Source: Lautropia sp. (GTDB lineage Bacteria; Pseudomonadota; Gammaproteobacteria; Burkholderiales; Burkholderiaceae_E). From it: a stretch of 64,000 bases of DNA. Location: NCBI GenBank assembly GCA_030527825.1, contig JAUNAC010000001.1, positions 62,001 to 126,000 of the forward strand. The letters are read 5' to 3'. The notes under the pieces were generated by a model. It was not told where the DNA came from and searched no databases. It worked only from the letters and a program-made list of their open reading frames with translations. Shown piece by piece: positions 57,133 to 58,639 of this stretch. The position numbers and the translations under genes are program-made. Position 1 is the stretch's first letter. Each line of letters starts with the position of its first letter.

Positions 57133-57573
57133 ATGTCCATGATGTCTGAATTCAGAGACTTTGCCCTCAAGGGCAACGTCGTCGACCTCGCCGTCGGTGT
57201 GATCATCGGCGGTGCCTTCGGCAAGATCGTCGACTCGATGGTCAAGGACATCATCATGCCGATCGTCGGTGCGATCTTCGGTGGCCTGGACTTCTCCAGC
57301 TACTTCATCCCGCTGACCACCAAGGTGCCCGAGGGCCTGCCCCACACCTATGATGCCTACAACAAGGCAGGCGTGGCCATTCTGGCCTACGGCAACTTCA
57401 TCACCATCTTCCTGAACTTCCTGATCCTGGCCTTCATCATCTTCCAGATGGTGCGCGTGTTCAACAAAGCCAAGGACGCCCTGGTCAAACAGGAAGCCGC
57501 CGCACCGGCAGCACCGGCCGAAGACGTCGTGCTGCTGCGCGAGATCCGCGACGAACTGAAAAAAGGTCGCTGA
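57133..57573 (+). CDS. mscL: large-conductance mechanosensitive channel MscL
   Basis: MscL opens under membrane tension to release solutes in hypo-osmotic shock. The 146-residue protein has the family N-terminus '[28 protein letters not shown]', two membrane helices and a C-terminal helical bundle ending '[13 protein letters not shown]'. AGGAG precedes the ATG with 9-base spacing. It ends in a terminator and interrupts the usual petA-nif3 neighbourhood. Confidence 0.97.
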
Positions 57574-57662
57574 TTCGCAGACCCTGTCCCCAGGAAGGGG
57601 CTGCGACCCCTTCCCGGCAGGTAGCCGCAGGCGTTCCGACGCGTTGCAGCCACCTGCTTTCC

Positions 57663-57714
57663 AAGCCGGCTCCGCTCCCCAGGCTCAACCTGGGCAGCCA
57701 GGCCGGCTTCTTTT
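57663..57714 (+). terminator. mscL terminator
   Basis: AAGCCGGC (57663-57670) pairs with GCCGGCTT (57702-57709). Inside, CCCAGG and CCTGGG form a second stem around CTCAA. CTTTT follows. It lies about 90 bases after the mscL stop. Confidence 0.75.
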
Positions 57715-57765
57715 ATGGGCGGACGACCTGTGGCGCGGCAGGACGCGGAGGCACATCGAACAGGC

Positions 57766-57792
57766 AAAAAAAGACCCGCCTTGCGGCGGGTC
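57766..57792 (-). terminator. rho-independent terminator of the small RNA
   Basis: On the minus strand GACCCGCC/GGCGGGTC forms a perfect 8-bp stem with a 4-base loop, followed by seven T residues. No protein gene on the minus strand ends here, so it must end a short non-coding transcript. Confidence 0.88.
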
Positions 57793-57849
57793 CCTGATCG
57801 CTATCTACGGGGGGGAGCGCACTTGCGCTCGCGTGTCCCATAGCATACG
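57766..57849 (-). ncRNA. candidate small RNA with C-rich single-stranded stretch
   Basis: A strong promoter (TTGACA, 17 bases, TATATT) and a strong terminator bracket about 84 bases without a plausible reading frame. The RNA would fold as a first hairpin with stem GAGCGC/GCGCTC and a 4-base loop, then an exposed run of seven C residues ending in G, a short spacer, and the terminator hairpin. A C-run in the open could pair with Shine-Dalgarno sequences, as in known trans-acting RNAs. It is divergent from, and 29 bases away from, the Abi-like gene. It does not resemble 6S, 4.5S, tmRNA or RNase P RNA. The start is inferred from promoter spacing. Confidence 0.7.
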
Positions 57850-57855
57850 GGTATT

Positions 57856-57884
57856 AATATAAAGAACTGAGAACTCCATGTCAA
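57856..57884 (-). promoter_or_regulatory. consensus sigma-70 promoter of the small RNA
   Basis: On the minus strand the -35 is TTGACA (57879-57884), the spacer is exactly 17 bases, and the -10 is TATATT (57856-57861), one base from consensus. It is the best promoter in the window. Its -35 overlaps the first codons of the Abi-like gene on the other strand, so the two genes share control DNA. Confidence 0.8.
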
Positions 57885-58543
57885 CCGGATACCCTGCCAC
57901 TCGGCCCATTCGCCAGACGCTTTCAGCACCTCGGCTAGGGACTTATGAATCAGCGATGGCCACACAGGGCCAAGTCGATCCCAAGGCAGCACTCGAACTA
58001 TATGCCTGGAATGCCGAGATTTCCGGTGCGTTGCTGTTCCCGCTGCATGTCTGTGAAGTTGCCATCCGCAACGCAGTCGCGGAGGTACTCGAAACAATTC
58101 ATGGAGAACACTGGCCCAGGGAACAAGCATTCAAACGCTTGCTCCATAAAAAGATGCGGGACGACCTACAGACGGCCGCAAACAAGGCAGGAAACACCAC
58201 TTCGAAGGTCATCCCTGAGCTGACATTCAGCTTCTGGCAACACATGTTCACCAGTCGCTACGATTCTCGAATCTGGAACAAGTACCTACATGATGTCCTG
58301 CCAAATCTCCCCCCCGGTCAAAGCATCAGCGAACCACGCGCAAAAATAAATGACCATCTAGAACGCGTTCGAATCCTGAGAAACCGGATCGCCCACCACG
58401 AACCCATTTTCAAGCGCAACCTGCAGGACGACTACGACACCATCCTAAGGCTGGTCGGCTGGCGCTGTCAGTTCACCGCCGATTGGATGGATGAACACCA
58501 ACGTGTCAGGCACATCCTGGGAAAAAGCCCGCTGCTGCGCTGA
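57878..58543 (+). CDS. Abi-like protein with HEPN RNase motif
   Basis: The 221-residue protein matches the Abi-like (abortive infection) family: an N-terminal 'LSAPRLGTYESAM', then 'ALELYAWNAEISGALLFPLHVCEVAIRNAV' and 'LTFSFWQHMFTSRYD', and the C-terminal 'RVRILRNRIAHHEPIF'. The last contains the Rx4-6H motif (RNxxxH) of HEPN ribonucleases. Such proteins cut RNA or stop growth in response to phage or stress, but this one is not characterised. GAGAA precedes the ATG weakly. Its codons use more A and T than the neighbours (e.g. cta, aaa, ata), and it stands between mscL and nif3 in an otherwise conserved block, which suggests acquisition. It is divergent from the small RNA. Confidence 0.82.
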   Translation: MSTGYPATRPIRQTLSAPRLGTYESAMATQGQVDPKAALELYAWNAEISGALLFPLHVCEVAIRNAVAEVLETIHGEHWPREQAFKRLLHKKMRDDLQTAANKAGNTTSKVIPELTFSFWQHMFTSRYDSRIWNKYLHDVLPNLPPGQSISEPRAKINDHLERVRILRNRIAHHEPIFKRNLQDDYDTILRLVGWRCQFTADWMDEHQRVRHILGKSPLLR

Positions 58544-58639
58544 TGCCTGAGCGCTCACCATGGCCCTGCGCCCGGAAGAAATCCTTGCCTCTTCCTGCCA
58601 CTCAGCCCATGCCGTCAATCAGGCAGGGCAGCCCCCGGA

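Follow-up and report, generated by a model that had tools for sequence, protein, structure and literature searches.

The window analysed here is a 64,000-nucleotide (nt) stretch of a Lautropia sp. genome (contig JAUNAC010000001.1, positions 62,001 to 126,000). It contains a gene for an Abi_2 (AbiD/AbiF-type) HEPN protein and, divergent from it, a small RNA gene that runs from a promoter to an intrinsic terminator (Table 1). Computational analysis of the two established the anatomy of the RNA gene, a folded structure with covariation, the conservation of the promoter and the co-occurrence of the RNA with Abi homologues.

Table 1. Features of the RNA-Abi locus, in window coordinates
Feature	Position	Strand	Remarks
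Small RNA gene	57766..57849	-	predicted transcript of about 84 nt; start near 57849 estimated from the -10 box
-35 box, TTGACA	57879..57884	-	overlaps the first Abi codons; conserved among homologues
-10 box, TATATT	57856..57861	-	17 nt spacer to the -35 box; conserved among homologues
P1 stem, 5' strand, CUAUGGG	57837..57843	-	from fold and alignment
Internal loop (asymmetric), 5' side, ACACGC	57831..57836	-	from alignment A4
P2 hairpin	57815..57830	-	6 pairs, 4-nt loop; family consensus has 4 pairs, so two longer here
Internal loop, 3' side	57812..57814	-	three Cs of the C-run; most conserved RNA columns
P1 stem, 3' strand, CCCGUAG	57805..57811	-	from fold and alignment
Linker, P1 to terminator	57796..57804	-	where relatives carry the ACAUACGAUAG consensus stretch
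Intrinsic terminator	57766..57795	-	11-pair stem 57795-57770, seven Ts 57772-57766
Abi_2 (AbiD/AbiF-type) HEPN gene	57878..58543	+	221 residues; from Pfam, PADLOC and predicted fold
HEPN catalytic motif, RNRIAH	58379..58396	+	residues 168-173; from alignment of homologues
Inserted RNA core and Abi segment	~57796..58625		between mscL and nif3; right edge uncertain; no Abi at the site in eight relatives

The protein scores above the cut-off of the Pfam Abi_2 profile (PF07751; 28.9 bits against 25.6, 1.7e-6) and matches the PADLOC models for PD-T4-5 (6.7e-16) and AbiD (9.2e-8). The PD-T4-5 model is matched by all 34 sequences in the alignment of homologues, and R168, N169, R170 and H173 of the RNxxxH motif are invariant in the same 34. 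The structure model is confident and all-helical. The predicted fold is AbiF-like, with the best structural match to PbAbiF-AbiFr (PDB 8vz6; 12-14% sequence identity), which was solved with a noncoding RNA (ncRNA) and whose title describes a dimer with bound ncRNA; a sequence search of the PDB with the protein returned nothing relevant. The entry is reportedly that of Zilberzwige-Tal et al., Cell 2025. Relatives of the protein were matched in 1029 plasmid records at E<=1e-5, mostly distant, and in seven records of a phage collection; a scan of viral_contigs found none. A term search of the available text of PMC6970203 found no expression evidence for the Zymomonas homologue, which is carried on a Zymomonas mobilis plasmid (L092).

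The initial annotation described a near-consensus promoter on the minus strand, an overlap of its -35 box with the first Abi codons and a strong terminator with seven Ts, and these descriptions are correct. The promoter agrees with the consensus at 11 of 12 positions, and TTGACA at 57884-57879 lies on the first codons of the Abi gene, which runs from 57878. Such elements are not distinguished by their number: a scan of 8 kb gave two promoter-like sites against 1.9 expected, which is chance level, and ten terminator-like sites against 6.2 expected (standard deviation 2.8), which is barely above it. What sets the promoter and terminator apart is their quality, spacing and conservation. The statement that no open frame lies between them needs qualification, as two ATG frames start within the RNA (13 and 42 codons, the latter extending beyond the terminator). 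The first ATG is present in just one of 30 aligned RNAs, that of the window itself, and there is therefore no sign of coding.

The fold predicted for 57845-57766 has an energy of -40.3 kcal/mol (z of -4.19), equalled by none of 200 shuffled sequences. The element that had been described as a first hairpin actually comprises two stems, with P1 enclosing P2 (57830-57825 paired with 57820-57815). The C-run, which had been called exposed, is so only in part: three of its seven Cs are paired in P1 and one in P2, with three unpaired by the family model and two by the minimum-energy fold. The C triplet of the internal loop is nearly invariant, with C in 29 of 30, 30 of 30 and 25 of 27 aligned sequences.

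Structure statistics come from 30 cores, 29 of them distinct, aligned with MAFFT. P1/P2 pairing is formed in 83.5% of cells (71.7% when shuffled), and 10 of its 11 pairs are changed on both sides (5.6 when shuffled). The covariation score is 0.446, compared with 0.211 for the shuffled alignment, a control that takes no account of relatedness when some rows are close relatives, and with 0.034-0.250 for pairs slid by 1 to 3 columns, a control that is biased towards P1 because this stem was placed manually with single-sequence folds as the guide. In a subset of 22 cores, without the window and seven others, 9 of 11 pairs are changed on both sides and the score is 0.409 against 0.205. RNAalifold on alignment A2 did not recover P1. 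An outer stem, P0 (ACUA/UAGU), forms in just 54% of cells and is not claimed.

To follow the RNA in relatives, the DNA upstream of Abi homologues was compared from genome contigs, plasmids and other genomes, and the same divergent arrangement was seen at most of the homologous Abi loci. A whole-RNA nucleotide search of 101 genomes proved too insensitive for judging conservation: besides the window's own genome it gave only matches of 27-40 nt in four genomes, every one of them falling in the query's terminator end. Two covariance models were relied on, both built with the window excluded. Model R1, from the RNAs of 23 relatives, placed 57766-57854 first in the window (51.3 bits, E 2.6e-12; second match 12.2 bits). 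The R1 survey covered 42 sources (41 loci and the window, with L008 and L010 being one place), and matches of at least 43 bits on the strand opposite to abi were found at 31 of them, the window and 30 loci. The 31 include the 23 that built R1 and eight that did not; L089, L091, L093 and L097 are near copies of R1 members and L016 is close to one. R1 gave no convincing match at L008/L010, L009, L022-L026 or L107. Its matches at L103 and L106 (29-31 bits) are at background level, were not reported by the second model and are not counted, although both loci are still rows of alignment A4. That second model, R3, is terminator-free and was built from 22 RNAs; it placed the core 57843-57804 first in the window (23.3 bits, E 8.4e-5; next 12.1) and gives a single core match per RNA in the window and relatives.

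The promoter is conserved together with the hairpins in relatives that have the Abi gene, a check that the initial annotation had proposed. When promoters were sought relative to the RNA core, scores of at least 9 of 12 were reached at 26 of 30 loci, and the mean of 9.67 compares with 6.42 in mononucleotide shuffles. The score is below 9 at L012, L018, L020 and L108, and p exceeds 0.05 at these four and at L013 and L015.

Several homologues were inspected by eye. Divergent hairpins lie upstream of the weaker ones at L023, L024, L140 and L141; at the first three of these a T-run follows the outer stem, so the outer stem itself may be the terminator. The actinobacterial homologues L025 and L026 are preceded by a hairpin that lies on the gene's own strand and resembles the RNA in its stem, internal loop and inner hairpin.

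The co-occurrence of RNA and Abi gene was judged with R3 at E<=0.001. An R1 search of 369 class genomes had matched 73 genomes, and these counts were discarded in favour of R3 because the low-scoring matches inspected (below 41 bits: L110, L111, L113 and L115) were all terminators by eye, one of them behind a tRNA. In the same 369 genomes R3 reports one genome, G514, in which about 40 nt separate the RNA from a divergent Abi homologue. Seven of the 369 have an Abi homologue at E<=1e-5, and the RNA is present in three of these (G000, G514 and G422); R3 found none in the four with weaker homologues (G241, G342, G379 and G432), although inspection by eye shows a divergent hairpin in G342 and G379. 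R3 matches occur at five places in four of 249 phylum genomes, all four with an Abi homologue. Four of the places, one each in G514, G640, G633 and G613, are divergent and beside the homologue. The fifth is a second place in G640 (L149, around 1501-1556) with no Abi-like frame within 1.5 kb on either side, and it looks like a relic in a genome that also holds an RNA-Abi pair. Abi homologues at E<=1e-10 occur in ten of the 249 genomes. The RNA is in all six of these with at least 42% Abi identity, although in G422 and the window it took R1, or R3 on a small search space, to find it, and R3 matched none of the four with at most 36% identity, of which G563 (L153) has a similar divergent hairpin by eye. 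An ncRNA gene is stably beside the abi gene, though by the model not for homologues with about 36% identity or less, and the expectation that the RNA is not widespread without Abi was borne out in both genome sets.

Outside these genome sets, a Burkholderia RNA matches 45 plasmid records. In all 31 that were compared with Abi positions the RNA is adjacent and divergent, including one on a Rhodococcus plasmid. Over all searches, the RNA adjoins Abi homologues on this plasmid and in three proteobacterial classes, Alpha-, Beta- and Gammaproteobacteria. On a Marinobacter plasmid (L094, 291-363) a PtaRNA1 antitoxin RNA lies about 1 kb from the Abi homologue and RNA. In E. coli the L101 RNA was matched in 37 of 5426 genomes, with at least 80% coverage in one. 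The E. coli case inspected, on a 4593-bp plasmid (L161, NZ_CP030332.1, about 1451-1570), is a relic, with a C-terminal Abi remnant adjoining an RNA that has neither promoter nor 5' end.

In each of the nine genomes examined in this genus, mscL and nif3 are adjacent and converge, and the window's own is the only one of the nine with an Abi homologue. G007, of the same genus and free of Abi, has the same terminator behind nif3, identical over 28 nt, and for this reason the terminator end probably predates the insertion. Most simply, nif3 was separated from its terminator by the arrival of Abi and the RNA core, and the RNA now borrows this terminator; loss from G007 is a possible alternative. In G006 the same site holds a nucleotidyltransferase and substrate-binding pair of MNT/HEPN type (L031, 1975-2798; Pfam NTase_sub_bind 1.8e-34, Polbeta 9.4e-12), which raises the possibility that units of this kind have a small hotspot at the mscL-nif3 site. 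Behind mscL, on the plus strand at 57637-57713, a hairpin followed by a T-run is probably the mscL terminator; the hairpin has a sub-threshold Rfam match to Scr3202.

The initial annotation proposed that the RNA and the HEPN protein are a unit, with the RNA as antitoxin or regulator. Sequence comparison and structure modelling support the unit, and the antitoxin branch fits best because the nearest solved fold is that of an AbiF with an ncRNA. The predicted AbiF-like fold, the presence of a HEPN motif and the adjoining conserved, structured RNA make it probable that the RNA is an antitoxin for an AbiF/AbiD-type HEPN toxin, in a toxin-antitoxin or phage-defence unit. The protein would be a ribonuclease, probably dimeric, that stops growth when free. 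The divergent RNA, with P1, the asymmetric internal loop and P2, would bind it and keep the nuclease inactive, and, by analogy, the conserved loop with its unpaired Cs is a candidate contact site. Transcription from the strong promoter would provide RNA in excess, and polymerase on this promoter may also hinder transcription of the toxin gene, whose first codons carry the -35 box. Upon phage infection or loss of the locus the RNA would fall and the nuclease would be freed.

Type I-like antisense control, in which the RNA would pair with the Abi mRNA leader and block expression without binding protein, is an unlikely alternative. The two genes are divergent and abutting, and the RNA would be complementary to any Abi transcript with its start upstream of 57849. 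However, the RNA stops short of the coding region, covariation of its structure is seen among distant hosts, which perfect complementarity does not need, and the fold relative 8vz6 was solved with bound ncRNA. The -35 box on the first toxin codons of the window and the conservation of the promoter in relatives would also suit an action of the promoter only, with transcription away from the toxin gene occluding the toxin promoter and the RNA as a by-product; this is very unlikely, since a by-product would not keep P1/P2 through compensatory change and a near-invariant unpaired C triplet would be unexpected in it. A guide RNA, aiming the HEPN nuclease at targets as a CRISPR RNA does for Cas13, is suggested by proposals in the available text of PMC12373285, PMC12165695 and PMC12737573 that AbiF/AbiD are Cas13 ancestors, but it is hardly credible when the aligned cores have no variable, spacer-like segment and AbiF is described, in the accessible part of PMC12948488, as without RNA-targeting specificity. 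Least credible is an independent trans-acting small RNA that reaches host mRNAs through the C-run and neighbours Abi by chance: an unpaired C-rich stretch is there, but R1 at 42 mscL/nif3/terminator loci of the window's genome and relatives scored above 21.1 bits only at the window (51.3 bits), leaving the 41 loci of relatives unmatched, and the RNA adjoins Abi homologues across the proteobacterial classes and Rhodococcus plasmid named above.

The closest precedent for RNA-antitoxin control is AbiF of the C. difficile phi027 prophage, which, according to the available text of PMC12373285, is toxic and is neutralised through direct binding of the adjacent ncRNA RCd22. The two systems share an Abi_2-family HEPN protein with RNxxxH and a promoter-to-terminator ncRNA of about 100 nt alongside; RCd22, however, is described as preceding the toxin gene on one strand and in a common transcript, and as having two RF03085 motifs. 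The RNA in the window is divergent, as it is at the 30 other loci with strong R1 matches, and comes with a promoter of its own, contains one P1/P2 core and does not match RF03085. RF03085 was not found at E<=10 in window positions 57500-58200 or in the window's genome, where the same setting gave below-cut-off matches in 6 of 14 control genomes, nor at gathering score in 20 homologue loci; as a yardstick, it was not found upstream of three lactococcal Abi genes and one from Leisingera either. The likeness to PbAbiF is judged from the protein fold. The lactococcal loci L157 (plasmid pIL105, whose protein we take to be AbiD1), L158 and L159 encode Abi family proteins, as the window does. By eye, the roughly 100 nt directly ahead of the Abi gene at L158 and L159 contain a promoter and a hairpin-terminator RNA; unlike in the window, both are on the strand of the gene and the RNA has no separate terminator. 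Nor does this RNA match RF03085.

Toxins of type I toxin-antitoxin systems are small and hydrophobic, whereas the window encodes a 221-residue, all-helical HEPN protein. The type III systems ToxIN, TenpIN and CptIN likewise set an RNA antitoxin against an RNase toxin, but with another toxin, another RNA structure, tandem RNA repeats and a same-strand layout (available text of PMC12373285); the RNAs described here have no tandem repeats. PD-T4-5 is a plasmid-borne, toxin-antitoxin-like Abi defence protein distantly related to AbiF/D, which the accessible part of PMC9519451 does not list among multi-component systems and for which it mentions no RNA partner; the RNA may hint that proteins like PD-T4-5 have an antitoxin that has been missed.

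To call the locus an undescribed system, as the initial annotation did, is too strong: RNA-antitoxin control of AbiF is already published (PMC12373285), and the window locus counts as a variant rather than as a category in its own right. What appears to be new is the RNA family, together with the divergent arrangement in which it has its own promoter and terminator. A literature search that left out most subscription papers found no account of an RNA divergent from a neighbouring Abi gene, and the RNA family is not reported in Rfam 15. Its novelty is set against Rfam; the AbiF RNA models of the Cell 2025 study, named AbiF5_iter3 and diverse_rna_xinsi in the available text of PMC12804078, may already cover it. 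We consider it possible, at a little less than an even chance, that these loci are a distinct and widespread RNA-antitoxin branch, in which an AbiF-type HEPN toxin and a divergent structured RNA separate from RF03085 have overlapping control regions and dosage depends on competition between promoters, not on read-through of a terminator. A second family of RNA partners with another layout, on plasmids and chromosomes of Proteobacteria, would reveal which RNA features are needed to hold a HEPN nuclease, and many genes annotated as 'hypothetical protein' or 'Abi family protein' would become candidate toxin-antitoxin units. On the same reading of these loci as a distinct branch, the same-strand hairpins seen by eye before the actinobacterial and lactococcal relatives suggest that the RNA unit may have switched strand while the protein family leading to Cas13 evolved.
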